Assembly (NCBI RefSeq): GCF_011006175.1
Contig: NZ_CP048795.1
Location: 1,418,491 to 1,482,490, forward strand
Source: Hydrogenobacter sp. T-8
GTDB lineage: Bacteria; Aquificota; Aquificia; Aquificales; Aquificaceae
DNA length: 64,000 bases
Direction: 5' to 3'
This document shows positions 2,783 through 63,575 of the stretch, piece after piece; positions within the stretch are counted from its first letter, which is position 1; each line of letters starts with the position of its first letter. Under the pieces are notes generated by a model. That model ran no database searches. It was not told the DNA's origin and was given only the letters and a program-made list of their open reading frames with translations. The translations under genes and the position numbers were made by a program.

Positions 2783-2791
2783 TGCTATAAT
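2783..2791 (+). promoter_or_regulatory. Extended -10 promoter of valS
   Basis: TGCTATAAT, a perfect extended -10, ends 9 bases before the valS ATG. The predicted transcription start is about 3 bases upstream of the start codon and there is no Shine-Dalgarno. Confidence 0.7.
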
Positions 2792-2800
2792 CCTTTTTCT

Positions 2801-5800
2801 ATGAAGGACATAGGACAATACAACCATAAGGCAATAGAGTCCAATCACTCAAAGAGGTGGATAGAGAAGGCTCTTTATTCTGTAGAAAACCCTTCTTTTC
2901 AAAATAGGTTTTCTGTAGTTATACCTCCACCTAATGTGACAGGTTCTTTGCATATGGGACATGCCTTAAATGCCACTTTGCAGGATATAGTTTGTAGATG
3001 GCAGAGGATGCTTGGCAAGGATGTGGTCTGGGTGCCAGGCTTTGACCATGCGGGTATTGCGACCCAGTATGTGGTGGACAAACGTCTTCAAGAAGAAGGA
3101 CTAAGCAGGTTAGAGCTCGGTAGAGAAGAATTTCTCAAAAAAGTCTGGGAATGGGTTCCTATATCAAGAAACGCTATAAGACAACAGCTTGAAAAGCTCG
3201 GTGTTAGTGTAGATTGGAAGAGGGAGAGGTTTACCCTTGACGAAGGCTTTTCAAGAGCGGTCAGGCACGCCTTTAGAAGGTTATACGAAGAGGGTCTCAT
3301 ATACCGTGCGGAGTACATGGTAAGCTGGTGTCCAAAAGACCTAACCGCCCTTTCTGACCTTGAGGTGGAACACGAAGAAGAAGAGGGAAAGCTCTACTAC
3401 ATACGCTACCCTCTTGAGGACGGTTCAGGCTACATAACCGTTGCTACCACAAGACCAGAAACCATGCTCGGAGACACTGCGGTTGCGGTCCATCCTCAAG
3501 ACGAAAGGTATAAGAACCTTGTAGGTAAGAAGGTTAGACTTCCCCTTGTGGATTGGAAAAGGATAGCTATGGATGGCTCAGAGGTGGAAAACCTTATCCC
3601 CATTATAGCGGATGAAAGGGTAAAGCCTGAGTTTGGAACGGGAGCGGTAAAGATAACACCCGCACATGACCCTCTGGACTTTGAAATAGGAAAGTCTCAC
3701 GGTCTTGCCTTTGTGCAGGTAATGGACCAGTTTGCCAATATGAACCAAAATGCGGGCAAGTTTGCAGGGCTTGACAGATATAGTGCGAGGAAAAGGATAG
3801 TGGAGGAGCTTGAAGAACTTGGACTTCTTGAGAAGGTGGAAAATCATAGACATGCGGTTGGTAAATGTTATCGCTGTAAAACTGTTCTTGAGCCTATGGT
3901 TTCTACCCAATGGTTTCTAAAGGTCTCGGACCCCAGAATAAAAGAAAGGGCTACACAGGTAGTCAAAGAAGGTCTCATAAAATTTGTCCCAGAAAATTGG
4001 AAAAAGATATACCTCCAGTGGATGGAAAACCTCAAAGACTGGTGCATATCCCGTCAAATATGGTGGGGACATAGAATACCCGTATGGTATTGTGAGGACT
4101 GCGGGCACGAAAACGTGTTTACCGACGAAGACTTTGACAGGGTCTATGACAAACTCATCTTTAACCTCATAGCGGACCGCAAAATAAAGGAGGAATTTAC
4201 TCCAGAAGAAGTAGCCAGTATACTCCACTCTCCCTCCTTTGTCCATCCAGAGCTCACCGTGTTGGACTTTTACAAGAAGTTTGCCTTTCATAAATATCAC
4301 TCTACCGAAGTGGATGCTAATTCTCTAAGGCTCTTTTTCACCCAAGACCTAAACCCCATGGCTATTCTCACAGAAAAGAAGAGCAGATACAGGTATGACA
4401 GCAAGAAGAAAACCTACAGGTTTGTTTTGCGTTGTAAAAAGTGCGGTTCTGAAAATCTAAGGCAAGAAACAGACGTGCTTGATACATGGTTTTCCTCTGC
4501 CCTTTGGCCCTTTGGTGTCTTTGGCTGGCCCGAGGAGACACAAGACCTCAAGGGACTATACCCCACAGACCTCTTGGTAACAGGCTTTGACATTATCTTT
4601 TTCTGGGTTGCCCGTATGGTGATGATGGGCACTTACTTTATGGAGGATATTCCTTTCAGGGATGTATACATACATGCTCTTATAAGGGATGAAAAGGGAC
4701 AGAAAATGTCCAAGACCAAGGGTAATGTGATAGACCCTCTTGATATTGTGGAGAAGTATGGTGCGGACGCACTGCGTTTTACCTTGGCTATTCTTACACA
4801 GCAGGGAAGGGATATAAGGCTCTCTGAAAAGCGTTTTGAAGGTTATAAGCACTTTGCCAACAAGCTGTGGAACGCAGGCAGGTTTATACTTATGAACCTT
4901 GAGCCAGACCTACTTACAAAGCTACCCTACTGTGCACCACCAAGGGTAGAAGACCTCTGGATAATTACAAAGTTAAATAGGACCATAGAAAAGGTAAACA
5001 AAGCCCTTTCAGAATACGAATTCTCAGAAGCTGCAAAAGAGCTATATGAGTTTATATGGAGCGAGTTTTGTGATTGGTATATAGAGTTTTCAAAGCTCAG
5101 GCTATACGCCAAACCAGAGGAGAATGTGTCAGAAGAAGAGAGAAAGGCACAAGAAGAAGCCATAAACAGAGAAAAAATAACCGTTCAGGCAACCTTACTA
5201 AACGTATTTGAAAAGACCCTTAGGCTTTTGCATCCCTTTATGCCCTTTATAACAGAGGAACTATGGCTTGAGCTTCCCACAGCCCACAGGGAAAGCATAT
5301 CTTTGGCAGATTATCCCCAGCATAACCCCTCAGAGGTCTACGAAGAGGCGGAAAAGAAGGTAGAAAGGCTAAAGGAAATTATCTCTGCCATACGCTCCCT
5401 CAGAAGCGACTTAAGAATTGAACCTTCACGGAAGATAAGGCTCTACTACAAGGCAGGAGAAAGCAAGGGGCTTGTGCAGGAGTTTATGCCCCACATCTTG
5501 AGCCTTGCAAGATTAGAGAGTTTTCAAGAGGTGCAAACAGAACCACCCAACTGTGTAGCAGGCTTTTCAAGAGATTTTGAGTTTTATCTCCCCGTAGAGG
5601 AGGGTATAAAGGTTCAAGAGCTACTAAACTCCTATTCAAAAAGGCTCTCGGAAATAGAAAAGTCTTTGCAAGGCTTTCAGCAAAAGCTAAGCAACGAAAA
5701 CTTCTTAAGGAGAGCCCCAGAAGAAGAAATTAACAAAGCCAAAGAATTCCTTGAAGAGCTCCGAGAGGAAAAGCAGAAGGTGGAGAGCCTACTTTCTTTT

Positions 5801-5818
5801 CTAAGGCGTTTGGTGTGA
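2801..5818 (+). CDS. valS: Valyl-tRNA synthetase with a ~100-residue insertion
   Basis: A class I synthetase charging tRNA-Val. HMGHA (about residue 51) and KMSKTKGN (about 634) are the ATP-binding signatures. TTRPETMLGDTAVAVHP marks the CP1 editing domain that removes mischarged Thr, DWCISRQIWWGHRIPVWYC the catalytic core, and DVLDTWFSSALWPF the zone after the zinc site. The C-terminal 70 residues are the coiled-coil tRNA-binding arm. At 1005 residues it is longer than usual (about 860-950), because the two CxxC pairs (about 430-433 and 545-548) are separated by roughly 110 residues of unrecognised sequence. It is transcribed alone, from an extended -10 nine bases before the ATG. Confidence 0.96.
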   Translation: MKDIGQYNHKAIESNHSKRWIEKALYSVENPSFQNRFSVVIPPPNVTGSLHMGHALNATLQDIVCRWQRMLGKDVVWVPGFDHAGIATQYVVDKRLQEEGLSRLELGREEFLKKVWEWVPISRNAIRQQLEKLGVSVDWKRERFTLDEGFSRAVRHAFRRLYEEGLIYRAEYMVSWCPKDLTALSDLEVEHEEEEGKLYYIRYPLEDGSGYITVATTRPETMLGDTAVAVHPQDERYKNLVGKKVRLPLVDWKRIAMDGSEVENLIPIIADERVKPEFGTGAVKITPAHDPLDFEIGKSHGLAFVQVMDQFANMNQNAGKFAGLDRYSARKRIVEELEELGLLEKVENHRHAVGKCYRCKTVLEPMVSTQWFLKVSDPRIKERATQVVKEGLIKFVPENWKKIYLQWMENLKDWCISRQIWWGHRIPVWYCEDCGHENVFTDEDFDRVYDKLIFNLIADRKIKEEFTPEEVASILHSPSFVHPELTVLDFYKKFAFHKYHSTEVDANSLRLFFTQDLNPMAILTEKKSRYRYDSKKKTYRFVLRCKKCGSENLRQETDVLDTWFSSALWPFGVFGWPEETQDLKGLYPTDLLVTGFDIIFFWVARMVMMGTYFMEDIPFRDVYIHALIRDEKGQKMSKTKGNVIDPLDIVEKYGADALRFTLAILTQQGRDIRLSEKRFEGYKHFANKLWNAGRFILMNLEPDLLTKLPYCAPPRVEDLWIITKLNRTIEKVNKALSEYEFSEAAKELYEFIWSEFCDWYIEFSKLRLYAKPEENVSEEERKAQEEAINREKITVQATLLNVFEKTLRLLHPFMPFITEELWLELPTAHRESISLADYPQHNPSEVYEEAEKKVERLKEIISAIRSLRSDLRIEPSRKIRLYYKAGESKGLVQEFMPHILSLARLESFQEVQTEPPNCVAGFSRDFEFYLPVEEGIKVQELLNSYSKRLSEIEKSLQGFQQKLSNENFLRRAPEEEINKAKEFLEELREEKQKVESLLSFLRRLV

Positions 5819-5918
5819 TAGGATGTTTATACGCACATGAATACTATCTAACTGAAAAGGGACTTAGTGCTTTGGAATAGTTATGCTCTAAAAACACCGC
5901 TGAGAAGTCTCCACTCTC
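5819..5918. other. Convergent intergenic gap valS/fabZ
   Basis: One hundred bases between the ends of valS (+) and fabZ (-). No tRNA, hairpin terminator or conserved repeat is evident. Confidence 0.5.
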
Positions 5919-6368
5919 TTAACGCTTTAGTTCATGGAGCTCACGCGCCGCTGCGTAAAGCACTGCGGTGGCCACCACTTCAGAGCCTACCTTTGCGGTG
6001 CCTTTCATTTTAGATAGGCTTTTCTTTAGGGATATAACCTCAAGCTCCAGCAGGAGCTGGTCACCAGGATAAACCGGTCTCTTGAACCTTGCTTCATCTA
6101 TACCTGCAAACACTATGGCATACTTTCCTATTTCAAGTCCAAGGGATTTTATCATAAGAATACCACCCACCTGTGCCATGGCTTCAAGAATATAAACACC
6201 CGGCATGAGAGGAAAGTTAGGAAAGTGTCCCTGAAACACAGGCTCATTCACAGACACATTTTTGATCCCCACTATTCTCTTGCCCACCTCCATCTCAACA
6301 ATCCTATCCACAAGGAGTATAGGGTATCTGTGCGGTAAGATTTCCATTATTTCTCTCGTGTTCAGCAT
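5919..6368 (-). CDS. fabZ: 3-hydroxyacyl-[acyl-carrier-protein] dehydratase
   Basis: A 149-residue hot-dog-fold dehydratase of the fatty-acid elongation cycle, forming trans-2-enoyl-ACP. The family signature is intact: [14 protein letters not shown] near the start, the catalytic-His block [12 protein letters not shown], and EAMAQVGG carrying the catalytic Glu. Length is normal. It stands alone, away from plsX-fabH at 37-39 kb. TATAAT on the minus strand (6377-6382) ends 8 bases before the ATG with no Shine-Dalgarno, so the mRNA is probably nearly leaderless. Confidence 0.96.
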
Positions 6369-6376
6369 AGCTAAAG

Positions 6377-6382
6377 ATTATA
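6377..6382 (-). promoter_or_regulatory. -10 box of fabZ
   Basis: A perfect TATAAT on the minus strand, 8 bases from the fabZ ATG. The expected transcription start lies within a few bases of the start codon. Confidence 0.65.
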
Positions 6383-6451
6383 AGCCAAATTTTCATAAAA
6401 TTTTAATCCTTAGTGGTGTATACTTTTGGCATCAAGTGTGGAGGTATTAAC

Positions 6452-6922
6452 ATGAAGAAGATTGTCTACTTGGCTCTTGCTTCTGGAGCATTCTTTGCCT
6501 TTTCCTGTCAGCAGAAGCCTGCGGAACAGCCTGCACAGCAGGCACAGTCTCAAGGACAAGCACAACAGCCAGCACCTCAGGCAGAACAAAAGCCAACAGA
6601 ACAACCTAAGGCGGAAGAAAAGCCTGCACAACAAGAGGCTCAAGCTCCAGCAGGACAGCAAGTAGCTCAAGTAAAGGACATGCAGGCTTTTGCCCAGCAG
6701 AAGGGCTGTTTTGCATGCCATGACATAAACAACAAGAAGGTGGGACCTGCCTTTAAGGAGGTTGCAAAAAGGTTTGCGGGACAGCCTAATATAGAAGAAG
6801 AGCTCGCTAAGAGGATAAAGAACGGTGGTGTGGGAACATGGGGTCAGGTGCCTATGCCTCCTCAGAATGTTACAGAGCAAGAAGCTAAGGACTTGGCTAA
6901 GTGGGTGCTTAGCTTGAAGTGA
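6452..6922 (+). CDS. Lipoprotein-anchored monohaem cytochrome c
   Basis: 156 residues. Residues 1-19 are a lipoprotein signal with the lipobox FAFSC. Residues 20-78 are a low-complexity linker of Gln, Ala, Pro, Glu and Lys. The C-terminal domain is a class I cytochrome c: CFACH (about residues 86-90) binds haem, and QVPMPPQ supplies the Met axial ligand, as in c551/c552. It is likely a periplasmic electron carrier tethered by a flexible arm so that it can reach different partners. The ATG at 6452 is preceded by GGAG and gives a proper signal peptide. The next gene starts inside its stop codon, so the two are coupled. Confidence 0.9.
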   Translation: MKKIVYLALASGAFFAFSCQQKPAEQPAQQAQSQGQAQQPAPQAEQKPTEQPKAEEKPAQQEAQAPAGQQVAQVKDMQAFAQQKGCFACHDINNKKVGPAFKEVAKRFAGQPNIEEELAKRIKNGGVGTWGQVPMPPQNVTEQEAKDLAKWVLSLK

Positions 6923-7155
6923 AGGAAATTCTCAGAGGTTTTATAGAGCTTCACTTTAAAAAACCTGTGGAGGTCTCTCAGTTTCATGTAAGGGACCTCC
7001 TTCTTCTTTCTCTTTTTCTTGACTACTTTGGGCTTGACAATCCTCTCGGTGTCTATGTACTTGACCTATATCCTCTAATGCTTCATGAGTTTCACATCTG
7101 GCATAGAAGTGTAGGTCTTGAAAGAGGAGGGCTTAACTTTCTACCGTGCTGTTGA
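6919..7155 (+). CDS. Small protein ending in Cys-Cys (cory-CC-star-like)
   Basis: 78 residues starting at a GTG (6919) that overlaps the cytochrome stop. The second half matches, from memory, the short family named 'cory-CC-star protein': a VLDLYPLMLHEFHIWHR block (Leu-Tyr-Pro, then Phe-His-x-Trp-His) and an invariant C-terminal Cys-Cys immediately before the stop. Its function is not established. Members are found beside an ArsA-type ATPase, as here, where the ATPase starts 10 bases inside this gene. The terminal Cys pair could bind a metal or be the site of cargo handling by the ATPase; that is inference. Confidence 0.7.
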   Translation: MKEILRGFIELHFKKPVEVSQFHVRDLLLLSLFLDYFGLDNPLGVYVLDLYPLMLHEFHIWHRSVGLERGGLNFLPCC

Positions 7156-7955
7156 AAAGGCTTGTATTCTTTGGAGGAAAGGGAGGCGTTGGTAAAAGCA
7201 CTCTATCCTGTGGTGTAGCCCTTAGGCTCTCTAAGATAGACAAGACGATACTCCTTTCTGTTGACCCAGCCCACTCCCTGTCGGGCATACTGGGAGTGCC
7301 CGTGGGAAGCCACATAAAGCATGTCAAAGAGAGACTTTTTGCGGTGGAGCTGGATGCTCGGGTGCTGGTGGAGGAGTATGCCCAGAGGGTCCTTTCCGCC
7401 CTTGGCGAGCTCCTGCCCTCTGTAAGCTCTGGCATAAGGGAATACGCAAGGTATCTAAAAAGCTCTCCCACCGCTCAGGAAACTGCGGCTCTTGATAGGC
7501 TCTTAGACTACTGCCAAGAGTTTACTTATGTAGTGGTGGACTCTGCGCCCACTGGTCAGATGCTCAGATTTTTTGAAACCGCCCATATGGTAGAAGGATG
7601 GTATGGATTTCTCCATAAGGTTGCCAAAGAGAGACACAAGGTGGAGAGCTTTATGGGGAGGGAAGACAAACTCATAGGGTTTATACAAAACAGAAAGGAG
7701 AGGCTTGAGACACTGCTTCATGTGTTGAGGGAAAAAGCCCTTGTTTTTGCAGTTGCCAATGAGGAACCTCTCTCCCTGCAAGAAGCCAAAGAGATAAGGG
7801 AAAAGCTGAGGGACATGAAGGTTTACACTGTGATAAACCGTTGGCACAGTATGGAGTGCGATTGTATAAAAGTGCCAGAGACCGAAAGACCTTATGGCTT
7901 GGAAGCTTTGGAAGGGTTTAGGGTGGAAGAGATAGTGGAGTTTGTTCTTAGGTAA
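7146..7955 (+). CDS. ArsA/GET3-type ATPase
   Basis: 269 residues of the SIMIBI/deviant-Walker class. GGKGGVGKST at residues 10-19 is the deviant P-loop with the signature Lys. SVDPAHSLS and VDSAPTGQMLRF are the switch regions (the ArsA family usually has DTAPTGH; here DSAPTGQ). It is a single ArsA domain, as in GET3, and not the tandem arsenite pump. No arsB or arsR is nearby, so arsenite efflux is unlikely. The upstream Cys-Cys protein is the likely partner. The GTG at 7146 overlaps that gene; a TTG at 7152 is an alternative. The last 64 bp overlap the convergent P-type ATPase gene. Confidence 0.88.
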   Translation: MLLKRLVFFGGKGGVGKSTLSCGVALRLSKIDKTILLSVDPAHSLSGILGVPVGSHIKHVKERLFAVELDARVLVEEYAQRVLSALGELLPSVSSGIREYARYLKSSPTAQETAALDRLLDYCQEFTYVVVDSAPTGQMLRFFETAHMVEGWYGFLHKVAKERHKVESFMGREDKLIGFIQNRKERLETLLHVLREKALVFAVANEEPLSLQEAKEIREKLRDMKVYTVINRWHSMECDCIKVPETERPYGLEALEGFRVEEIVEFVLR

Positions 7956-10435
7956 GTAAACCATTTCCTCAGCTCTATGCCAAGGAAGGTGAGTATGGGT
8001 AGGAGGACTACATAGGGTATATGCCTTGGTGAGAGGGCGACCGCATGGAAGTAATCCGCAAGCACGGTTATGGCAGATAGCTGGAGCACAGCTCCGAGGA
8101 AAATGCCAAGGTATACATAAGGGTTTAATTTTATATGCTCTATGGGATTTCTGAAGAAGGGTCTTTCGCTTACTTCCTGCACTCCAACCGCCCATTGGCT
8201 CACCACCGCCGAGGTAAAACTTATGGTAAGTGCCAACTCGTAAGGATAGTTTTTCAGAAGGTGTAGAAAAAGGAAGTAGTGCATAAGAGCCATCAAAAGC
8301 CCATTGTAAGCCAAGGTTATGAGCTGTTCTCTACCTATGAAAACCTTCATGGGGTTCTTGGGTTTTTCCCTCATGGGGTCACCCTCATACTTTGTAAAGG
8401 GATAGGCTTTGTCTTGGACGCCGTCGGTCACCAAGTTTATCCAGAGTATCTGCGTGGGATAAAGGGGCAGGGGCAAGCCAGTGATTATTGCCAGAGAGTT
8501 GTATAGAATCTGGAAGGAGTTGGCAGAGAGTAGATACCTTATAACCTTTGAGATGTTCTTGGCTATAAGCCTTCCTCTCTTTATGGCGTTGACTATTATG
8601 GCGAGGTTGTTGTCCACTATTACCATCTTGGCGGCGTCCTTTGCCGCCTGAGAGCCTGAACCCATAGCAATACCCAAATCTGCCACCCTCAAAGCCGGTG
8701 CGTCGTTGGCTCCGTCGCCGGTTACCGCCACTATTTCGCCCCTTGCCTGCAGGACTCTTACTATTCTGTATTTATCCTCTGGCGTAGCCCTTGCTACCAC
8801 GCCTACTCGCCTAAGCACATTGTAAAGCTCATCGTCGCTGTATTTTTCAAGGTCCTTGCCCTCTATGGCTATGTCTTTGTCCTCATATATTCCCACCATG
8901 CTCCCTATGGCTTTGGCGGTCAGCAGGTTATCCCCCGTTATCATTATCACCCTTATGCCTGCCCTCTTTGCGGTCTCCACCGCCTCCTTTACCCCTTCTT
9001 TGGGCGGGTCCATAAAGCCCACAAGTCCCACCACCTCTATCTTCACTTCATCTACACTCTCTGGAACTTTGTCAAGCCTCGCATAACCGAAGGCGAGAAC
9101 CCTCAGCCCTTTCTGTGCCAGCTTATCATGTGCCTGCCAAACCTCCGCAGGACAACCTTCTTTGCACATGCGGGCAAGGCTCTCTAACGCACCCTTCACA
9201 TAAAAGTCAAAGCCAGAACCTCCAGAGACTATAACCGCCATGAGCCTTCTTTTTGTATCAAAGGGATGCTCCCATAGTCTTTCGTAGCCTTTTCTTAGTG
9301 CTTCCCAGTTTACCCTTTCCTCCTCAAGCCATTGCAGGAGTGCCACCTCAAGAGGGTCTCCCTTTAGTGCATCCGCATCGTTGCAAAGAGCGGAGCATAG
9401 AAAGAGCTTTCTTTTGTTATAAGCTACATATTCGCTGACCTTCAGCTTGCCGAGAGTTATAGTGCCTGTCTTGTCAGAGCATATGTAGGTGGCACTTCCA
9501 AGGGTTTCCACCGCTGGAAGGTATTTTACCAACACCTTTTCCCTTGATAGTCTAACCGCACCCACCACAAGGGCTATGGTGACCACTATGGGAAGTCCCT
9601 CTGGCACTGCAGAGACCAGCTGAGCTATGGCAAAAAACACTATGGTTTTTGCATCCCTCCCTTGGAATATTCCTATCGCCACCAGCAAAGACAGGAAGAT
9701 GAGAAGTATAAGTATCCACCTCCTTCCAAAGCTACCCAGGGCTTTTGTGAGGGGGCTTTCTGGGGATTTTTCTTGTAGCCTCTGGGCTATTCTTCCAAGC
9801 TCCGTGTTCTTGCCTGTGGCAAATACTACTCCAAGTGCTTTTCCCCTTACCACAGTAGTTCCCTTATACAGACAGTTGCTCCGTGCGTGAAGGGGTGTAT
9901 CTTCTGCAAGAACAGTCCCCGCCTCCTTTTCTACAGGCAGAGACTCACCAGTTAGCATGGCTTCGTCCACCATAAGCCCCGCACTCTCAATGAGCCTCAT
10001 GTCCGCAGGGACCACATCCCCCTCGCCCAGAAGAACAAGGTCTCCCGGCACAAGTTCCATGCTGTCCACTTCTTTCTCTACACCATCCCTTATGACCTTA
10101 ACCTTTAGAGCGGTAAGAGATTTGAGGGCCTCTATGGAGGCTATAGCCTTAAGCTCCTGATAGAAACCCAAAAGCCCGTTTGCGATCAAGATGCCATAGA
10201 CCACTACCGCATCCTTTAGGTCTCCAAGAAAGAGGGCTATAAAGCCGGCCACAAAGAGTATAAGCACAAAGGGGCTCGTGAACTGTCTTACAAAAACCCT
10301 GAGCTTGCTCTCCTTTTCCTCCCTTAGCAGGTTATACCCGTAAAGGGTAAGCCGTCTTTCCACCTCCTTCTCGCTCAGCCCTTCAGGGCTTGTTTGTAGC
10401 TCCCTCAGGCTCTCCTCCGGATTCTTGTGGTGCAT
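7892..10435 (-). CDS. P2-type cation-transporting ATPase
   Basis: An 847-residue integral membrane pump. The N-terminal cytoplasmic helix is followed by a first membrane pair, the actuator loop with LTGES, and the M4 motif VPEGLP. CSDKTGTIT holds the phosphorylated Asp (Ile where Leu is usual). TGDGANDAPALRVADLGIAMG is the hinge, followed by a six-helix C-terminal membrane domain. M6 keeps NLVTDG as in SERCA-like Ca2+ pumps; in M5 the position of the Ca2+-binding Glu seems to be Gln (SANSFQ). The ion is therefore uncertain (Ca2+, Mn2+, Na+ or H+). The C-terminal tail is encoded over the end of the convergent ArsA-like gene. Confidence 0.9.
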   Translation of the reverse strand: MHHKNPEESLRELQTSPEGLSEKEVERRLTLYGYNLLREEKESKLRVFVRQFTSPFVLILFVAGFIALFLGDLKDAVVVYGILIANGLLGFYQELKAIASIEALKSLTALKVKVIRDGVEKEVDSMELVPGDLVLLGEGDVVPADMRLIESAGLMVDEAMLTGESLPVEKEAGTVLAEDTPLHARSNCLYKGTTVVRGKALGVVFATGKNTELGRIAQRLQEKSPESPLTKALGSFGRRWILILLIFLSLLVAIGIFQGRDAKTIVFFAIAQLVSAVPEGLPIVVTIALVVGAVRLSREKVLVKYLPAVETLGSATYICSDKTGTITLGKLKVSEYVAYNKRKLFLCSALCNDADALKGDPLEVALLQWLEEERVNWEALRKGYERLWEHPFDTKRRLMAVIVSGGSGFDFYVKGALESLARMCKEGCPAEVWQAHDKLAQKGLRVLAFGYARLDKVPESVDEVKIEVVGLVGFMDPPKEGVKEAVETAKRAGIRVIMITGDNLLTAKAIGSMVGIYEDKDIAIEGKDLEKYSDDELYNVLRRVGVVARATPEDKYRIVRVLQARGEIVAVTGDGANDAPALRVADLGIAMGSGSQAAKDAAKMVIVDNNLAIIVNAIKRGRLIAKNISKVIRYLLSANSFQILYNSLAIITGLPLPLYPTQILWINLVTDGVQDKAYPFTKYEGDPMREKPKNPMKVFIGREQLITLAYNGLLMALMHYFLFLHLLKNYPYELALTISFTSAVVSQWAVGVQEVSERPFFRNPIEHIKLNPYVYLGIFLGAVLQLSAITVLADYFHAVALSPRHIPYVVLLPILTFLGIELRKWFTYLRTNSTISSTLNPSKASKP

Positions 10436-10447
10436 GCAAGAATTTTA

Positions 10448-10456
10448 TGGTATAAT
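10448..10456 (+). promoter_or_regulatory. Extended -10 promoter of atpB
   Basis: TGGTATAAT, an extended -10, ends 9 bases before the atpB ATG. No Shine-Dalgarno fits between them. A minus-strand TAAAAT in the same gap is positioned 6 bases from the P-type ATPase ATG. Confidence 0.7.
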
Positions 10457-10465
10457 CTTCTTACC

Positions 10466-11458: not shown

Positions 11459-11459
11459 T

Positions 11460-15016: not shown

Positions 15017-15022
15017 ATTATA
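15017..15022 (-). promoter_or_regulatory. -10 box of the HsdS-like gene
   Basis: TATAAT on the minus strand, 8 bases before the ATG at 15008; no Shine-Dalgarno. Confidence 0.6.
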
Positions 15023-26174: not shown

Positions 26175-26200
26175 GCCTTAGAGTTTATAATTATCAGCTT

Positions 26201-29026: not shown

Positions 29027-29034
29027 CTTATATT
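29027..29034. promoter_or_regulatory. Face-to-face overlapping -10 boxes of hslO and the deacetylase gene
   Basis: TATATT on + (29029-29034) ends 8 bases before the hslO ATG. TATAAG on - (29027-29032) ends 9 bases before the deacetylase GTG. The two hexamers share four base pairs, so RNA polymerase can probably occupy only one direction at a time. Confidence 0.5.
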
Positions 29035-29042
29035 TTAAACCC

Positions 29043-29888
29043 ATGTATAGAGACCTTGACGCACAGACCAGAGAAGACCTAAGGCTCTATTTTCAAGACA
29101 GGGACTATATGGTAGTCTCTGTGCCAAAGGATGAGCTTATAAGGGTTTATACCCTGCAGGCAAACCATGCAGTGGCGGTTGCCAAGAGAATACATAACTT
29201 GGAAGGTCAAAGGGCGGAGCTTATGGGCTATGCCATAATGTCCGCTTTGCTTTTGACATCCCTTGTAAAACATGCAACAGAGCAAAAGGTGCTTTTTAAG
29301 GTGCAAACAGATTCTGGAGTTGTAGTCTCAGAGGCGGACGGAAAGGGAAGGGTGAGAGGTTTTATAGAAGGCGACCCACAAGAAGGTTGGGTCTCTGGAG
29401 TTTTAACCGTAGTAAAAGAGCTAAGGCTTGGCGTGCCTTACACGAGCATAGTCCCAGTGGTGGGTAGAAACCTAAAGGAGGCACTTTCCTTTTACTTTGA
29501 GCAATCAGAACAAACAAAAACCTATTTGGATATGCACTTGGAATTTACCTCAGCAGGAGCTCAGGCAAAGGCTTATCTTGTGCAAGTGCTTTCTGGAGTT
29601 TCTCAAAGAAGCATTGACCTTATAGAGGAAAACCTAAGAAACCTCTCCTTTTTAGGCAAAAGACCAGAGGAAATTGCAATTGAAATACTCAAGGATATGG
29701 AACCAAGGCTCATAGGTCTCAAGGAGGTGGAATACTACTGCCCCTGCAGTGAGGAGATAGCCCGCTCAAGCCTAATGCTTTTGCAAGAGGAGGAGCTCCA
29801 AGATATACTAAACGAGGGTCCTGCGGAGGTGGTCTGTAAGTTCTGCAAGAGGGTCTACCGCTTTAGCAGGGAACAGCTTATGCTATAA
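29043..29888 (+). CDS. hslO: Redox-regulated chaperone Hsp33
   Basis: A 281-residue holdase activated by oxidation. The N-terminal domain is followed by the zinc module with the CxC and CxxC pairs (YYCPCSEE and VCKFCKRVY), which release zinc and form disulfides on activation. The family blocks GRVRGFIEG and [11 protein letters not shown] are present. It is transcribed from a -10 shared with the divergent deacetylase. Its stop codon lies inside the -10 region of the rpsB promoter. Confidence 0.94.
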
Positions 29889-29889
29889 T
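29881..29889 (+). promoter_or_regulatory. Extended -10 promoter of the rpsB operon
   Basis: TGCTATAAT overlapping the hslO stop. The predicted transcription start near 29896 leaves a leader of about 70 nt before rpsB, the longest clear leader in the window. Confidence 0.65.
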
Positions 29890-29899
29890 TTCTCTAAGA

Positions 29900-29961
29900 C
29901 CGCACCTTTCCCGAATGGGTTGCCCCGAGGGGGTCTGGGAAAGGGTGGCAAAACCCAAGGA
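29900..29961 (+). promoter_or_regulatory. Structured rpsB leader with two competing hairpins
   Basis: CCTTTCCC (29905-29912) pairs perfectly with GGGAAAGG (29937-29944), enclosing an inner GC stem (CCCC around 29923 with GGGG around 29930). A second hairpin, GGGT (29943-29946) with ACCC (29953-29956), shares bases with the first and sits just before the Shine-Dalgarno AAGGAGG. The two folds are mutually exclusive, a layout suited to autoregulation by S2 or another product. No U-tract is present, so translational control is more likely than attenuation. Confidence 0.5.
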
Positions 29962-34174: not shown

Positions 34175-35279
34175 GCCTTTTGAGTATATATTCTATTTTT
34201 TCCCTTGTCAAGTGTTTTAAAAACTCAAGCCAACCTTTCCAATATATGTCCTTGTAAGTTTTATCCCCTGTGAGCACACGGTAGAAATTTCTCAATGCGT
34301 AATCTTTTCCCATTTTGAAGGCAACCCTTTGAAATCTATAAGCAATTCTTGCTATCTTTCCTGCGTAAATAAGCTCTTCCGCCAATGGTTTCAGCATTAG
34401 TTCGTAGGCTTTTGTTGGTTCAGAAGGATTTTGTATTATGGCTTTCGCGAGGATTTTGCCTGCCCAAAGGGCGTAGTATATGCCTTCACCGAGTAGAGGG
34501 TCTGTCATATTGGCAGAATCTCCTGCGAGCAAAACTCTCTCCTTACCTATTTGAATGTCCTTTTTCCCTTCTGGAAAGGGTATATGCCAACCCTTTGGAT
34601 GTTTAAAGTTTATGTTTTTACTGAGAGCGTAGTCCCTTAGGATTTCAAGCAGGTTTTCCCTTCCAGTGGTTGCAATGCCAAGGCTTATGCCATCACCATG
34701 AGGAAACACCCAAAGATAACCTCTACTTACCCATCCTACCTCAATTAAAACCTTATCCCTTAGACTACCCTCCGTAAACAGCTCAAGACTTCTGAAAAAC
34801 TTTCTTTTCTTGTATCCAAGAAGTTCTGCGGTTTTAGAATGAAAGCCGTCCGCACCAATTAGATAGTCTGTGTAGAAGTTTCCTCTGCTTGTATAGACCT
34901 TGTATTGGTTTCCCTCCTTCTCAAAGCCTATAAACTCCCCAATAAGGAGCTCCGCACCAACTTCAAGAGCTTTTTGCACCAAAAAATGGTCAAACTCAGA
35001 CCTATCAACTATGTAAGCAACCTCTCTGTTTACCTCCACCTCATACTCCTGCAGACCTCTATAGCCAAGTTTCCCAGAGTTTATCGTGTTTAGTATTAAC
35101 CCTTTGTAGCCCTCTGGCAGAAGCCTTAGGGTTCTTGCGGACAAACAGCCCGCGCAGAGTTTAAACCTTGGAAGTTTCTCCTTTTCAACTATTAGGACCC
35201 TAAGACCAGATTTTGAAAGATGGTAAGCAGTGGAAGCCCCAGCGGGACCACCACCTACAACTACAGCATCGTAAAGCAC
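34137..35279 (-). CDS. Geranylgeranyl-reductase-family FAD oxidoreductase
   Basis: 380 residues with an N-terminal FAD Rossmann motif (DAVVVGGGPAGASTAYHLSKSG), the family block KLCAGCLSARTLR, YLIGADGFHSKTAELLG, and the second FAD motif LLAGDSANMTDPLLGEGIYYAL. The family saturates isoprenoid double bonds, for example in quinone or lipid side chains; a related FAD hydroxylase role cannot be excluded. The menaquinone gene mqnA in this window makes a quinone-tail substrate conceivable. Confidence 0.85.
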   Translation of the reverse strand: MLYDAVVVGGGPAGASTAYHLSKSGLRVLIVEKEKLPRFKLCAGCLSARTLRLLPEGYKGLILNTINSGKLGYRGLQEYEVEVNREVAYIVDRSEFDHFLVQKALEVGAELLIGEFIGFEKEGNQYKVYTSRGNFYTDYLIGADGFHSKTAELLGYKKRKFFRSLELFTEGSLRDKVLIEVGWVSRGYLWVFPHGDGISLGIATTGRENLLEILRDYALSKNINFKHPKGWHIPFPEGKKDIQIGKERVLLAGDSANMTDPLLGEGIYYALWAGKILAKAIIQNPSEPTKAYELMLKPLAEELIYAGKIARIAYRFQRVAFKMGKDYALRNFYRVLTGDKTYKDIYWKGWLEFLKHLTREKIEYILKRHEGRHSGVNAEF

Positions 35280-42108: not shown

Positions 42109-42153
42109 TCCTTTTTACAGGTCTTTGAGAGTTTCTATTTTTTGTCTTTAAAA

Positions 42154-42449
42154 GTTTTTACCCCTCACGGTGGGTTTAAAACCAAAGAAATAGAGGAGGC
42201 ACAGGAAGTGCTGACAAAGTCGCCATCCCTCACGGTGGGCTTAAAACCGTTGCCATACCAACACCAAAGGACGCCCAGAAAAGGTCGCCATCCCTCACGG
42301 TGGGCTTAAAACTTACAATAGGGTTTTGCTCTCCCTCCTTGTAAACTTCAGTCGCCATCCCTCACGGTGGGCTTAAAACCGTCAAAGGCTGGATAAGGTT
42401 TAGAAAGCCTCTCACTAAAGGTCGCCATCCCTCACGGTGGGCTTAAAAC
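42154..42449. CRISPR. Small CRISPR array: five 29-bp repeats, four spacers
   Basis: Repeats at 42154-42182, 42219-42247, 42284-42312, 42351-42379 and 42421-42449. The last four are identical on + (start GTCGCCATCC, middle CTCACGGTGG, end GCTTAAAAC). The first differs at its 5' part (GTTTTTACCC) and at one later base. Spacers are 36, 36, 38 and 41 bp and unrelated to each other. A degenerate repeat usually marks the leader-distal end, which would put the leader on the right and transcription on the minus strand. The AAAAC end of the + repeat would argue the other way, so orientation is left open. No cas genes are in the window. Confidence 0.95.
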
Positions 42450-42977: not shown

Positions 42978-42986
42978 TGCTATAAT
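42978..42986 (+). promoter_or_regulatory. Extended -10 promoter of the DUF1232 gene
   Basis: TGCTATAAT, ending 9 bases before the ATG at 42996; the same arrangement as valS. Confidence 0.65.
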
Positions 42987-46069: not shown

Positions 46070-46839
46070 TGGAGATAAGTCAAGCCTTTATATTGGGGGT
46101 GGTGGAGGGACTTACGGAGTTCCTGCCTGTTTCTTCCACAGGACACCTTATCCTCACCGCCCATCTTCTTGGCATACCTCACAACACCTTTACCAAGAGC
46201 TTTGAAATTTCCATACAGCTTGGCTCAATACTGGCGGTGGTTTTTCTCTATTGGAGGAGGTTTCTTACAGACCTTGAGCTTTGGAAGAGGATAGCGATTG
46301 CCTTTCTGCCTACAGGAATTCTCGGCTTTAGCCTCTACAAGTTCATTAAGGGATACCTTATAGGCAACGATGTGGTGGTGGTTATAGCTTTAGTGCTTGG
46401 TGGTGTTTTTCTCCTTTTTGCGGACAGAGTGTGCGAAGGTTTTTGTTATCTTAGAGATGCAAGAGAGCTCAGCTACAAAAGAGCCTTTGCCATAGGTCTC
46501 TTTCAGAGCCTTGCCATGGTGCCTGGGGTTTCAAGGTCCGCGTCCACCATAATAGGTGGTATGCTAATGGGTCTAAACAGGAGGGCATCTGCGGAGTTTT
46601 CCTTCCTCCTTGCGGTTCCCACCATGCTTATTGCCACAGGTTATGACCTATTTAAGTCTCATGGAGAGTTTCAAAGTCAAGACTGGCAGGTGCTTTCTGT
46701 AGGCTTTATAACCGCCTTTGTCTCTGCCCTAATAAGCGTAAAGGCACTGCTTGCTTTCCTCTCAAGGCACTCCTTTGTTCCCTTTGGCGTATATAGGATA
46801 GTCGTAGGCTTGGCTTACGCCTACTTTTTTCTGCTATAA
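46066..46839 (+). CDS. uppP: Undecaprenyl-diphosphatase
   Basis: A 257-residue polytopic enzyme (BacA family) recycling undecaprenyl carrier lipid for peptidoglycan and O-antigen synthesis. Both signature loops are intact: VVEGLTEFLPVSSTGHL and LAMVPGVSRSASTIIGG, carrying the catalytic Glu, Ser and Arg. Two adjacent ATGs (46066, 46069) are possible starts. It is the end of a run beginning at the DUF1232 gene. Confidence 0.95.
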   Translation: MMEISQAFILGVVEGLTEFLPVSSTGHLILTAHLLGIPHNTFTKSFEISIQLGSILAVVFLYWRRFLTDLELWKRIAIAFLPTGILGFSLYKFIKGYLIGNDVVVVIALVLGGVFLLFADRVCEGFCYLRDARELSYKRAFAIGLFQSLAMVPGVSRSASTIIGGMLMGLNRRASAEFSFLLAVPTMLIATGYDLFKSHGEFQSQDWQVLSVGFITAFVSALISVKALLAFLSRHSFVPFGVYRIVVGLAYAYFFLL

Positions 46840-46840
46840 T
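46832..46840 (+). promoter_or_regulatory. Extended -10 promoter of tpiA
   Basis: TGCTATAAT, overlapping the uppP stop codon and ending 7 bases before the tpiA ATG. Transcription should begin at or within one base of the start codon. Confidence 0.7.
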
Positions 46841-46847: not shown

Positions 46848-47588
46848 ATGAAGCTCATAGCAGGAAACTGGAAGATGAACCTCACACCCTCTGAAACAAA
46901 AGAATACATCTCAAGGTTTCTCCCTCTTGTGGAAGACATCTCAGACAGAGAAATACTCCTGTGCCCACCTTTTACATCTCTGTGCGTAGCCCATGAGCTC
47001 CTAAGGGAAAGCAAGGTCAAGCTTGGCGCTCAAAACTGCCATTATGAGCAAAAGGGTGCATACACGGGGGAGATTTCTCTCAATATGCTAAAAGACCTTG
47101 GCGTTTCCTACGTGATAATAGGTCATTCAGAAAGAAGATGGATTTTTGGCGAGTCTGACGAGCTAATAAACAAAAAATTGACCACTTGCCTTCAGGGGAA
47201 TATAAGACCTGTGCTTTGTGTGGGTGAAAGGCTTGAAGAGAGAGAGGCGGGTTTAACCTTCAAGGTGGTGGAAACTCAAATAAGGCTTGCACTTTCTGGA
47301 ATAGAACACTACACGGACAGCATAGATATAGCCTATGAACCTGTCTGGGCTATAGGGACAGGAAACCCTGCCACACCAGAAGACGCCCAGCTTGTCCACG
47401 CCTTTATAAAAGACCTGCTCCACCAAATAAACCCACAGCACGCAGGAAAAACAAGGGTGCTATACGGTGGGAGCGTAAACCCAAAGAACGCAGGAGATTT
47501 TATGAAGATGAAGGACGTGGACGGCTTGCTTGTGGGTGGTGCCAGCTTAGACCCTGAATCCTTTGCTCAAATCGTAAAGTCCTTTTAA
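46848..47588 (+). CDS. tpiA: Triosephosphate isomerase
   Basis: A 246-residue TIM barrel. AGNWKMNL carries the catalytic Lys, IIGHSERR the His, AYEPVWAIGTGNPATPE the catalytic Glu and flexible loop 6, and LYGGSVNPKNA the phosphate site. Used in gluconeogenesis in an autotroph. The last 42 bp overlap the convergent LptF/G-like gene. Confidence 0.97.
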   Translation: MKLIAGNWKMNLTPSETKEYISRFLPLVEDISDREILLCPPFTSLCVAHELLRESKVKLGAQNCHYEQKGAYTGEISLNMLKDLGVSYVIIGHSERRWIFGESDELINKKLTTCLQGNIRPVLCVGERLEEREAGLTFKVVETQIRLALSGIEHYTDSIDIAYEPVWAIGTGNPATPEDAQLVHAFIKDLLHQINPQHAGKTRVLYGGSVNPKNAGDFMKMKDVDGLLVGGASLDPESFAQIVKSF

Positions 47589-48605: not shown

Positions 48606-48621
48606 GGGCTAAAATTTTAAT

Positions 48622-50643: not shown

Positions 50644-50670
50644 AGTTTAATAATTTAAGGCGTCTGTATA

Positions 50671-53439: not shown

Positions 53440-53456
53440 GATTTATAGTTTATCAT

Positions 53457-53626: not shown

Positions 53627-53632
53627 TATAAT
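53627..53632 (+). promoter_or_regulatory. -10 box of the 66-aa gene and methyltransferase
   Basis: TATAAT ending 8 bases before the ATG at 53641, the common spacing in this window. Confidence 0.6.
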
Positions 53633-54483: not shown

Positions 54484-54515
54484 AATTTGACAAAACTTGA
54501 CTAAAATCTTTTAAC

Positions 54516-55658: not shown

Positions 55659-56038
55659 AGAAGGAAAGAACACGGCTCTACACCATAGGTGTGGTAGCCA
55701 GCATGTTCAACATACACCCGCAAACCCTCAGGCTCTACGAAAGGGAAGGTCTTATAAAGCCCACAAGGAGCAAGGGAAGGACGCGCTACTATACCGAAGA
55801 GGACATACAAAGGCTTGAGTTTATCCTTACCCTCAGCAGGGACTTGGGTGTAAACCTTGCGGGCATTGACATAATCCTTCGCATGAAGGAGCAGATTGAG
55901 GAACTGGAAGCTCAAGTGCAAAAGCTCATAGAGTTCATACAAAGGGAGGTTTCAGAGGTATACCAGAAGGATGAGGGCATAAAGTCCATAGTCCTTGCAG
56001 AGAGGAGGGACATACTCAAGTCCATAAGGAAACAGTAA
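55655..56038 (+). CDS. hspR: HspR-like MerR-family repressor
   Basis: 127 residues. The winged helix-turn-helix start [26 protein letters not shown] with [19 protein letters not shown] matches HspR, not effector-binding MerR proteins. The C-terminal helix is a coiled coil with no metal-binding Cys. HspR represses dnaK/dnaJ-type heat-shock genes. The dnaJ-hspR overlap (4 bp) supports feedback control. No clear HAIR box is seen upstream of dnaJ. Confidence 0.88.
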
Positions 56039-56048
56039 AATATAGTTT

Positions 56049-56534: not shown

Positions 56535-56535
56535 C

Positions 56536-57705: not shown

Positions 57706-58279
57706 CCTCTACGCTGTCCTCAGGGAGAACCCAAAGAGGACTACCTATCCTCACTTTTGCCCTTGAAAAGGGTAAAGGGATGGTAAGCCTATCCCACGTT
57801 TTTAACCTCACAGACCAATCAAAATCCACATACACAGGAATTATAGGTGTGCCTGTTTTCTGTGCGAGCAAAATTACACCTGCCTTTACCTTTCCATAGG
57901 GACCCTTTGGTCCGTCCACCGTTATGGCAACCGTGTTTCCCTCTTTGAGGACTTTTACCAACCTAAGAAGTCCTACGCTTCCACCCTTTTGTGGCTTTCC
58001 CTCTTCGCTTGAGCCTCTCACCACCTTGTAGCCAAGGCTAAGAAGGAACCTCTCCGCAATGTCCCCATCTCTGAACCTACTCACTAAGGCGTATATGCCC
58101 CTGTCTATACCGAGCATGGCAACCCCAAGAGCGTTTCCATGAAGAAGGGCTATGACCTTGCCCCTGTATAGCTCGTAGTCTATCCTCTTGTCCCACCTTA
58201 TGGTTTTGTGAATAAGTCTTAGTAAAAAGGCAACGAATGGCGCCAAAAAAACAGAAAGTCTGTGCCTTAACCTTTTCAT
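57620..58279 (-). CDS. DUF374 lysophospholipid acyltransferase family protein
   Basis: 219 residues with an N-terminal membrane helix. The conserved block VIALLHGNALGVAML is where the HX4D-type catalytic site of relatives occurs, and ITVDGPKGPYGKVKAGVILLA is the DUF374 signature. Probably acylates a lipid A precursor or related glycolipid; the substrate is not known. It overlaps the upstream peptidase gene by 4 bp. Confidence 0.85.
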   Translation of the reverse strand: MKRLRHRLSVFLAPFVAFLLRLIHKTIRWDKRIDYELYRGKVIALLHGNALGVAMLGIDRGIYALVSRFRDGDIAERFLLSLGYKVVRGSSEEGKPQKGGSVGLLRLVKVLKEGNTVAITVDGPKGPYGKVKAGVILLAQKTGTPIIPVYVDFDWSVRLKTWDRLTIPLPFSRAKVRIGSPLWVLPEDSVEAKREELEEVLSFLSLGKVSEKTLELKGS

Positions 58280-59598: not shown

Positions 59599-60323
59599 TG
59601 CACCACCACAACGCCATACCAGTTTTCCAACCTCTTTATTTTAGCAGGTCTTAGACCAAGCAGGTCAAGAAAAGCCCTTAGGTCTTCCTTTCCGTAAAGT
59701 CCAGAAAAAACGCCAACCCTTCTAAAGAGTTTCATAAGATACGGAAGCTCCCTTTTAAATATCTCTAACTCAAGGTTTGCCACAAGGAGGTCAAAGGTTT
59801 CTCTTATGTCCTCTGGTTTGGCGTGCCAACACTCAATCTCAACGCAGTTCTCTTTGGCATTATGCACACACTCTTGGACCGCAAGGGGGTCTATGTCTAT
59901 GGCAAGGACCCTGCCAGCTCTTAGTTTTTTGCAGGCTATGGCAAGTATACCCGTGCCAGTTCCCACGTCCAAAACAGACCAACCCTCTTGCAAATACTCT
60001 TGGAGGAGCCCAAGACAGAGGCGTGTGGTAGCGTGTAGCCCAGTGCCAAAGGCTACTCCCTGTCTTATAACCACTGGCTTTATCCAAGAGGGCAAAACCA
60101 TAAACTTCCCTACCCTGCGAGCCCTAAAGACCTTTTCTGGCGGGAGGACTTCTACCTCAAAAACCTCTAAGGGTTCAAGCCCTTCATAGGGTTCATAGAG
60201 TGCAAACTCCACAAAGGACTCACCTTCTGAAAGTATTTCCACGCCCTTTCCATACTCTAAGAGAAACTGATAAAAGCTTTCTGGTTCAAGCCTGTAGACA
60301 TACTTCTTGTGTTTTTGCGTCAT
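59595..60323 (-). CDS. prmA: Ribosomal protein L11 methyltransferase
   Basis: A 242-residue SAM-dependent enzyme trimethylating L11. The catalytic block AFGTGLHATTRLCLGLLQ precedes motif I (VLDVGTGTGILAIACKKL), and the LLVANLELEIF loop corresponds to the NI/NL motif. The N-terminal L11-recognition domain is reduced compared with E. coli. It overlaps the M23 gene by 4 bp. Confidence 0.93.
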   Translation of the reverse strand: MTQKHKKYVYRLEPESFYQFLLEYGKGVEILSEGESFVEFALYEPYEGLEPLEVFEVEVLPPEKVFRARRVGKFMVLPSWIKPVVIRQGVAFGTGLHATTRLCLGLLQEYLQEGWSVLDVGTGTGILAIACKKLRAGRVLAIDIDPLAVQECVHNAKENCVEIECWHAKPEDIRETFDLLVANLELEIFKRELPYLMKLFRRVGVFSGLYGKEDLRAFLDLLGLRPAKIKRLENWYGVVVVQ

Positions 60324-60361
60324 GCCTTTAATTATAAAGGTTTGTGCCTTATATTATTCTC

Positions 60362-62496
<2,135 letters not shown>

Positions 62497-62497
62497 T

Positions 62498-62509
62498 TAA
62501 AATATAACA
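62498..62509. promoter_or_regulatory. Face-to-face overlapping -10 boxes of kdsA and proB
   Basis: On the minus strand TGTTATATT (62501-62509), an extended -10, serves kdsA at 7 bases. On the plus strand TAAAAT (62498-62503) serves proB at 10 bases. Only 20 bp separate the two start codons, so both promoters must share this DNA. Confidence 0.55.
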
Positions 62510-62513
62510 CCCA

Positions 62514-63575
62514 ATGGTTCTTTTGGTGAAGATAGGCTCAAACCTCATACAAACTCAAGAGGGAGATATAGACCTTAGCTTTCTTTCAAGGCTTGCAAGG
62601 GATATAAAAAAGCTAAGGGATATGGGTCATAAGACCCTTATAGTATCTTCGGGTGCAGTGCTATGTGGAGTAAAAAAGCTAAACCTTTCTCATAGACCCA
62701 CAGACCTCCGCACAAAGCAGGCGGTCGCAGGAGTAGGACAAGCTTACCTTATGCATCTATATGACATGGTCTTTTCCAACTATGGGCTTACGGTAGGTCA
62801 GGCTCTTCTTACCGCAGACATATTTAAGGATAAGGAAAAGTTTGAAAACGCAAAGAACGCTCTAAGCAGTATGCTATCCCTTGGCATAGTGCCTGTTATA
62901 AACGAAAACGATACGGTAGCCATATCGGAGCTACTTTTTGGAGACAACGACTTCCTTGCAATTCACACCGCATATATGATGAAAGCGGACCTCATAGTTA
63001 TCTTTTCTACCGCAGGAGGTTTGCTGGACCATGAAGGAAGGGTAGTCCCCGTGGTGGAAGATGTGGACAAAGTTCTTCACCTCGTTAAGGGCGTAAACTC
63101 CCAGTTTGGCACTGGAGGTATGTTAAGCAAGATAACCGCATCAAGGATAGCGGTAAGGCTTGGTATACCAGTAGTCATAACAGGTAAGGAAGATAGCCTA
63201 CTTGATATACTTGAAGGTAGGACTACAGGCACATACTTTAAACCTTCTGAAAAACCTCTCAAAGAGGGAAAAAAAGCCCTCGCCATGCTTGAAGAGCCAA
63301 AGGGTGCCATATACATAGACGAAGGTGCATACAGGGCAATAAAACAGGGTAAGAGCCTTCTCCCTGCAGGTATAAAGAAGGTGGAAGGTAGCTTTCAAAG
63401 AGGAGACGTGGTAGTGCTATACGATGAAAGAGGCTTTCTTGTGGGAAAGGGAAAGGTAAACTTTAGCTCAGAAGAGGTTCGCAAGATTATAGGCAAAAAA
63501 GGAAAAGAGGTAAAGGATTTACTGAAAACTTCCATTGAAGAAGTGGTGCATACAGATAGGCTCGTTATATTCTAA
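62514..63575 (+). CDS. proB: Glutamate 5-kinase
   Basis: 353 residues phosphorylating glutamate in proline synthesis. An amino-acid-kinase domain (LLVKIGSNLIQT, IVSSGAVLCGVKKL, VPVINENDTVA, FGDNDFLA, GTGGMLSKITASRIA) is followed by a C-terminal PUA domain (about 265-350). No proA adjoins. The start codon lies 10 bases from its -10 box, with no Shine-Dalgarno. Confidence 0.95.
   Translation: MVLLVKIGSNLIQTQEGDIDLSFLSRLARDIKKLRDMGHKTLIVSSGAVLCGVKKLNLSHRPTDLRTKQAVAGVGQAYLMHLYDMVFSNYGLTVGQALLTADIFKDKEKFENAKNALSSMLSLGIVPVINENDTVAISELLFGDNDFLAIHTAYMMKADLIVIFSTAGGLLDHEGRVVPVVEDVDKVLHLVKGVNSQFGTGGMLSKITASRIAVRLGIPVVITGKEDSLLDILEGRTTGTYFKPSEKPLKEGKKALAMLEEPKGAIYIDEGAYRAIKQGKSLLPAGIKKVEGSFQRGDVVVLYDERGFLVGKGKVNFSSEEVRKIIGKKGKEVKDLLKTSIEEVVHTDRLVIF

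Follow-up and report, generated by a model that had tools for sequence, protein, structure and literature searches.

How is a gene started when its promoter ends only a few bases before the start codon, leaving hardly any room for a messenger RNA leader? The question is raised by a stretch of 64,000 nucleotides (the window) from Hydrogenobacter sp. T-8, a member of the Aquificaceae, which covers bases 1418491-1482490 of a single-contig genome of 1,805,817 bases. An initial annotation of the window listed 19 gene starts with a -10 hexamer close before the start codon and no Shine-Dalgarno (SD) sequence. The pattern is very probably explained by leaderless genes in the Aquificaceae, together with -10 hexamers that some divergent neighbours would share. 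A bolder form of the proposal, to which we give somewhat less than an even chance, is that the Aquificaceae, alone of the two large Aquificales families sampled, would run many first genes as zero-leader mRNAs. This would permit a minimal divergent unit of two leaderless genes, one palindromic double -10 and 16-20 bp between start codons, at which a single polymerase binding would choose the gene.

Results

TATAAT-like hexamers are concentrated just before the first genes of transcripts, at spacings of 6-9 bases, so the positional enrichment by which the initial annotation proposed to be checked is present. Across a 464-kb sample of the genome, which holds 190 first-in-transcript and 236 internal genes, 46 strict hexamers stood at these spacings before first genes, against 8.3 expected from other offsets (Poisson 1.3e-19). 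With the window left out, 155 first genes had 33 against 7.1 expected (1.7e-12), and seven Aquificaceae samples with 636 first genes had 155 against 28.7. The same signal appears without any gene calls, as TATAATN{7,8}ATG occurs 151 times in the whole genome, the reversed pattern 24 times and the version with N{17,18} 35 times.

Gene calls were based on the in-frame hexamer usage of open reading frames, and starts were set by coding score alone, blind to upstream signals. A gene counted as first if its upstream neighbour was divergent or the gap was at least 40 bases (80 in matrix training and in one early count). Genes without an upstream neighbour in the stretch, or less than 60-70 bases from its end, were excluded. 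To build the -10 matrix, expectation-maximisation was seeded with TATAAT and run, without favouring any position, over 131 of our own first genes, all lying outside the window; the learned hexamer had T1 at.86, A2 at.88, A4 at.89 and T6 at.97. Four random seeds led to AAGGAGGT twice, to a TTATAA-like motif once and to GGTTTTAA once. A near -10 is a hexamer above a strict threshold of 4.77 bits, the 95% point of dinucleotide shuffles at spacings 5-11.

Near -10s and strict SD sequences hardly ever occur together. A near -10 was found in 58 of the 190 own first genes and a strict SD in 41, and no gene had both (Fisher 4.6e-8); in genome G016 the two coincided in 1 of 91 first genes. The seven Aquificaceae samples together gave 185 near -10s and 137 strict SDs in 636 first genes. 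In another family, f3, presumably the Hydrogenothermaceae, near -10s were found in 15 of 252 first genes, close to the 5% null, and SDs in 98. That operon-internal genes carry GGAGG instead held as a tendency only, with a strict SD in 86 of 236 internal genes but also in the 41 first genes, and one of the examples given, the gene named pilT (23836, plus strand), is a divergent first gene instead. The gene tpiA exemplifies an internal gene with a near -10. Its start, at 46848 and 8 bases past the end of the upstream gene, places the extended TATAAT at 46835..46840 (plus strand, spacing 7, kept in 5/5 orthologs) inside the 3′ end of that gene.

The initial annotation also described several perfect extended -10s with no evident -35. 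TGn proved to be a minority feature (31/185), and -35 elements are present: TTGACA-like words are most frequent at spacers of 16-18 bp, with 51 in 185 genes against a baseline of about 26 that excludes the last spacer (32, count 2). The peak is weak, in keeping with sigma-70-type promoters whose -35s are weak.

In an even sample of 121 Aquificota genomes from a larger group, strong enrichment is confined to family f1, taken to be the Aquificaceae. The ratio of the pattern to its reverse is 3.29 in 56 f1 genomes (4594 vs 1397; above 1.5 in 51) and 1.00 in 36 f3 genomes (2679 vs 2675; above 1.5 in 2). It is 0.61 in the seven genomes of f2 and 0.82 in the single genome of f5. G016 has 47 instances of the pattern and 20 of the reverse. 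We presume G016 to be A. aeolicus, G022 Thermocrinis albus, G023 Hydrogenobaculum, and G048 and G056 two Sulfurihydrogenibium. In a small comparison of 50 kb each, near -10s preceded 1/25 first genes of E. coli and 0/22 of Thermus pTT27, numbers that are too small to weigh and, for Thermus, come from an A/T-rich matrix ill-suited to that genome.

In 200 divergent pairs from seven f1 genomes the start codons lie a median of 53 bp apart; in 56 such pairs from three f3 genomes the median is 127.5 bp. Starts 13-25 bp apart occur in 36 of the 200 f1 pairs and in none of the 56 f3 pairs (Fisher 1.1e-4). Among the 36 tight pairs, one of which is miscalled (see Discussion), -10s exceed the strict threshold on both strands in 13 and exceed 2 bits in 19. 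The latter count compares with a mean of 7.9 and a maximum of 14 in 200 shuffles, a control whose short gaps were padded with filler, slightly favouring the observed value. The two hexamers overlap in 15 of the 36 pairs and are separate in 4, the shuffle comparison covering their presence on both strands. Hexamer offsets in the 19 pairs are -3/-4 in 13, -2 in 2, +2 in 1 and +4 in 3, and the overlapping cores include TAAAATATA and TAAAATTTTA.

The window holds tight pairs of this kind. The genes lptF/G (start 48605, minus strand) and gcvT (start 48622, plus strand) are separated by 16 bp (48606..48621), in which the palindrome TAAAATTTTA is the putative -10 on each strand. Their start-to-start distance of 17 bp is the same in 13/13 same-genus genomes with a gcvT match, our own included, and holds where the local identity of the lptF/G proteins is as low as 44%; G007 had no gcvT match, and the gcvT of G019 lies 177 bases from a contig end. 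Among 17 other loci (14 in f1, 3 in f2) the pair was seen just in G027 and G034, at 25 bp. The genes kdsA (start 62493, minus strand; TATATT, spacing 7) and proB (start 62514, plus strand; TAAAAT, spacing 10) flank 20 bp (62494..62513), with starts 19-21 bp apart in 12/14 same-genus genomes, and the pair was not seen in 16 other loci examined. This follow-up covered 30 of the 38 genomes in which gcvT was matched and 30 of the 59 in which kdsA was. Overlapping candidate -10s at 29029..29037 would serve hslO (TATATT, plus strand, start 29043, spacing 8; kept in 5/5 orthologs) and a deacetylase gene (TAAAAT, minus strand, start 29023; 1/1), 20 bp start to start.

Tight pairs might instead be plain gene packing, with the promoter of each gene inside its neighbour and no shared -10. 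We consider this unlikely, but not far-fetched. It gains from the limited number of pairs with two strict -10s (13/36) or with overlap even at the relaxed threshold (15/36), from the filler in the shuffle control, and from the fact that any -35 would sit in the coding sequence of the neighbour. It does not readily account for a count of both-strand -10s at the relaxed threshold that exceeds all 200 shuffles (19 vs at most 14), for a pair distance that is constant across the genus, or for the lack of any strict SD seen before lptF/G, gcvT, kdsA and proB.

Of the 7 divergent pairs in 50 kb of Thermus pTT27, 2 have start codons separated by 13-25 bp. Such tight pairs may therefore be present in further leaderless-rich lineages and not be unique to the Aquificaceae.

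The base before the start codon bears on where transcription would begin. Pooled over f1, position -1 is a pyrimidine in 151/184 near -10 starts, vs 542/981 decoy ATGs with a chance hexamer (p 1.6e-12); in SD starts the count is 202/382. By spacing from 6 to 11, the fraction is 0.92, 0.89, 0.92, 0.75, 0.64 and 0.53. Bacterial start sites favour a pyrimidine preceding a purine, and given this preference the -1 base at spacings 6-8 points to transcription beginning with the start codon itself, at the A of AUG. At spacings 10-11 the leader may be short or the call false. The leaders of 0-4 nt that had been predicted would thus narrow to 0 nt at spacings 6-8, with the signal fading at 10-11.

A near-leaderless arrangement, in which +1 keeps a fixed distance of 7 bp past the hexamer and falls 1-4 nt before the start codon to give a very short leader, appears improbable. 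The modal spacing is indeed 7-8 rather than 6, spacings of 9-11 make up 63 of the 184 genes, and the -1 pyrimidine drops to 0.64 and 0.53 at spacings 10-11, as such an arrangement would have it. However, the pyrimidine tracks the start codon across spacings 6, 7 and 8, and at spacing 8 the base at -2, which would be +1 under the fixed 7-bp rule, is a pyrimidine in 82% of cases.

The A/T-rich words could also be translation signals, S1-type or unstructured initiation regions, and not promoters, a reading to which we give very little credence. It is allowed by the available passages of PMC5397173, which report that the non-SD genes of one Aquificae species are biased to U/A near -10 and admit either a leaderless promoter or an S1 site, and S1 is at hand in these bacteria. 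Yet the motif is one particular hexamer, preceded at about 17 bp by -35 words, and same-composition reversed patterns are 3.29 times rarer in f1. The motif is missing from f3, a family with strong S1 matches and, in most of the loci sampled, a higher A/T content.

Loss of ribosomal protein S1 was considered as a cause of the family difference and rejected. Matches to the rpsA family at E 7e-80 or better were found in 58 of 61 f1, f2 and f3 genomes, although just 1/61 passes the family's own cut-off; G001, G005 and G017 (75, 90 and 69% complete) had weak S1-domain matches only. With strong matches across all three families, S1 loss is not the correlate.

The hexamers are conserved at orthologous starts. 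Syntenic stretches of five same-genus genomes were compared, using the 19 listed genes and nine added by eye; orthologs that aligned after residue 6 were dropped, so the ortholog denominators are selected. Identity by block was taken for three genomes, without rows that lacked a start codon at the aligned place. In comparisons of 22-23 genes with each of G010, G004 and G006, identity was 0.77-0.83 at -15..-8, 0.66-0.71 at -7..-1 and 0.41-0.46 at -60..-21. At valS, the 120-aa gene and tpiA, the hexamer is kept in genomes whose DNA further upstream has been replaced. For the coiled-coil, hsdS-like and 66-aa genes, the syntenic loci of the five congeners yielded no ortholog. Among the nine added genes, yceD (score 0.7; 3/5 orthologs) and the PrmA-like gene (2/5) are weak.

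It is most implausible that the start codons are wrong, with true SD-led starts downstream and the hexamers as ordinary promoters with normal leaders: blind start calls did go wrong at purF, atpB and selD, and probably at an rpsB-like gene, but in up to five species the ortholog alignments (later-starting ones dropped) start no later than residue 6, purF is expected to begin with Met-Cys, and shifted starts would blur a spacing peak that is sharp. PurF needs an N-terminal Cys, and its start at 60362 is supported because it gives a Met-Cys-Gly N-terminus. The selD gene (17627-18643, minus strand) runs upstream through an in-frame TGA (ASG-TGA-ASK), where the mechanical open reading frame had been cut at 18574, and SelD is therefore probably itself a selenoprotein. 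Before tsf lies a gene that is presumably rpsB by its position; upstream of it, at 29884-29950 (plus strand), a TATAAT followed by AAGACCGCACCTTTCCC is conserved in our genome and four aligned congeners. Its called ATG at 29915 is conserved in 0/4 congeners, which points to a wrong start call and makes a leader RNA possible. Rfam gave nothing at gathering thresholds in the window, this stretch included.

Re-examined with a matrix trained outside the window, 16 of the 19 listed starts have a -10 at exactly the spacing first given. These are valS, fabZ, atpB, hsdS-like, selD, trpD, purN, hslO, 120-aa, tpiA, gcvT (spacing 6), 66-aa, dnaJ, purF, kdsA and proB. The best spacing was 8 for the deacetylase gene (given as 9) and 7 for purC (given as 9, with overlapping hexamers). 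Fifteen of the 19 exceed 4.77 at spacings 6-10, with selD (3.7), purN (4.5) and purC (4.7) slightly under. The gene names first proposed were consistent with Pfam for 16 of 18 scanned, the coiled-coil gene among the 16, with atpB outside the scan; the 120-aa ("DUF1232") and 66-aa genes had no Pfam match at E 1e-5. The coiled-coil gene has a DUF3782/PDDEXK match, which neither confirms nor denies a coiled coil. Its candidate -10s (1064..1074, minus strand, start 1056) are doubtful, as the TATAAG at spacing 7 scores -0.4 and the TATAAT at spacing 12 is better.

Full TATAAT hexamers precede several further genes on the plus strand: valS (2786..2791, extended by TGC; start 2801, spacing 9; kept in 5/5 congeneric orthologs), the gene named atpB (10451..10456; start 10466, spacing 9; 5/5), an added ychF-type GTPase gene (26186..26191; start 26201, spacing 9; 4/5), the 120-aa gene (42981..42986, extended; start 42996, spacing 9; 4/4) and the 66-aa open reading frame, a putative gene (53627..53632; start 53641, spacing 8). 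On the minus strand they precede fabZ (6377..6382; start 6368, spacing 8; 5/5), the hsdS-like gene (15017..15022; start 15008, spacing 8) and the added PrmA-like gene (60331..60336; start 60323, spacing 7).

Variant hexamers occur on the plus strand before trpD (TAAAAT, 18740..18745; start 18753, spacing 7; 5/5), purN (TAGAAT, 21548..21553; start 21562, spacing 8; 4/5), dnaJ (TAAAAT, 54502..54507; start 54516, spacing 8; 5/5), an added TrkA_C gene (TAAAAT, 56036..56041; start 56049, spacing 7; 4/4; score 3.3, below threshold) and purF (TATATT, 60350..60355; spacing 6; 5/5). Those on the minus strand precede selD (TATGAT, 18652..18657; start 18643, spacing 8; 3/4) and purC (TAAAAT, 23814..23819; start 23806; 3/4), where the overlapping word first taken was TATAAA. 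Four added genes on this strand follow the same geometry, for NlpC/P60 (TATACT, 34183..34188; start 34174, spacing 8; 5/5; score 4.2, below threshold), a rhodanese (TTAAAT, 50653..50658; start 50643, spacing 9; 4/4; score 4.6, below threshold), an amidase (TAAACT, 53447..53452; start 53439, spacing 7; 3/3) and a P-type ATPase divergent from atpB (TAAAAT, 10442..10447; start 10435, spacing 6; 5/5; score 4.0, below 4.77).

The P-type ATPase (7892-10435, minus strand) is 69% identical to a copy in the f3 genome G048; long matches in other f3 genomes reach 48-57%, and those in f1 genomes beyond the genus 50-69%. These values hint at transfer between f1 and G048. A short CRISPR-like array lies at 42135-42449, in an 887-base gap without a called gene, with five repeat copies ending CCCTCACGGTGGGCTTAAAAC at steps of 65-70 bases, the first copy degenerate.

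Discussion

Transcription without a leader, or nearly so, is the best reading of these promoters and is supported by the position of the hexamers, their exclusion of SD sequences, their conservation among orthologs, the pyrimidine at -1 and the contrast between families. The housekeeping RNA polymerase of the Aquificaceae would use TATAAT-type -10s at a distance of 6-9 bp from the start codon and would contact the -35 region only weakly. Transcription would begin on the A of AUG and yield an mRNA without a 5′ leader, presumably translated by direct recognition of its 5′-terminal AUG, like other leaderless mRNAs. A second class of genes would have an SD sequence and a promoter further upstream. 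Because promoter and leader would together shrink to about 15 bp, some divergent neighbours could carry overlapping -10s on opposite strands with start codons about 17-25 bp apart. If one polymerase binding event picks which gene is transcribed, the two genes would be coupled by exclusion. The element, its spacing, the exclusion of SD sequences, the conservation, the base at -1, the limit to one family and the geometry of the pairs are observed, whereas we infer the actual 5′ ends, the route taken by the ribosome and the two-way use of the shared element.

Several observations weigh against this account. Just 58 of the 190 own first genes pass a threshold that allows 5% false positives, 41 carry an SD and 91 carry neither signal, and 27 of 236 internal genes are likewise preceded by a near -10. 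Because 131 own first genes served to train the matrix, its scores in our own sample are partly circular; this spares the spacing position, which was not trained, as well as the strict-word test, the pattern test and the other genomes. No bias toward ATG was seen in the near -10 class (156/184, vs 327/382 in SD genes), in which GTG and TTG starts are no rarer (28/184 vs 55/382). The family boundary is not perfectly sharp: f4 has a mild excess (ratio 1.31; 474 vs 361 in 21 genomes, 8 above 1.5), and five of the 56 f1 genomes (G097, G112, G032, G113 and G015) fall below 1.5. As for the pairs, G016 has 4 tight ones in 33, and in none of these do both -10s exceed the threshold; in G023 the count is 0 in 16. 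Outside the genus the lptF/G-gcvT and kdsA-proB pairs are mostly absent. One of the 36 tight pairs (60323/60344, PrmA-like/purF) uses the wrong purF start; its true gap is 38, and it remains in the counts of 36, 19 and 13. The hexamer register of the pairs differs from that of the E. coli 18-bp promoter, and the reciprocal -7/-11 register was not found. Finally, the transcripts and their 5′ ends are predictions from DNA sequence.

The contrast between the leaderless-rich Aquificaceae and f3, which is without the signal, suits the question of how lineages switch modes of translation initiation, and the proposed two-gene promoter would be very compact. If the account is true, start-codon annotation that relies on SD sequences may misplace genes in these genomes.

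Leaderless genes had been predicted in this phylum before, contrary to the initial annotation, which knew of no such description for the Aquificaceae. As far as the available parts of Zheng 2011 (PMC3160421) go, a model of the 20 bp upstream gave 20.7-32.4% leaderless genes in two of five Aquificae, with the A. aeolicus motif as a figure example. The TA-led genes of that study have TANNNT/TATAAT about 12 bp before the start codon and no SD, and the same is found here, where TANNNT stands above chance about 12 bp before the start and none of the 190 own first genes has a strict SD at the same start. Zheng 2011 gives counts and a logo; our data add that the hexamers are conserved among orthologs, that a pyrimidine tends to stand at -1, that a survey of 121 genomes shows a family boundary and that tight divergent pairs occur. 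SD and -10 motifs are also given in PMC4227106, in whose consulted passages the word "leaderless" does not occur. Leaderless transcripts of mycobacteria and Deinococcus-Thermus have the same geometry of -10 and start codon, to judge by the table of Zheng 2011. The Hydrogenobacter motif is A/T-rich and near a full TATAAT, unlike theirs, and in mycobacteria the 5′ ends have been mapped, to judge by the title of PMC3898074, whereas those of Hydrogenobacter are predicted.

Leaderless divergent pairs sharing a -10 were not found among the papers listed in the literature searched, which comprised titles and the openings of abstracts, with subscription journals mostly outside it. Among the closest known systems are the bidirectional sigma-70 promoters described by Warman and Grainger; in those of E. 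coli, by the portions of PMC12825309 and PMC10268837 consulted, 18 bp is the commonest distance between start sites. Their -10s on opposite strands occupy one short stretch, as the candidate -10s do here, and the starts of the two pairs we followed, 17 and 19-21 bp apart, come close to 18 bp if their transcripts are leaderless. Unlike the E. coli promoters, both +1 positions would be start codons, and the offsets are usually -3/-4, not -7/-11. Leaderless Aquificaceae genes thus appear to be a known prediction, to which this work adds the -1 base, the family boundary and, most of all, the proposed shared mini-promoters.

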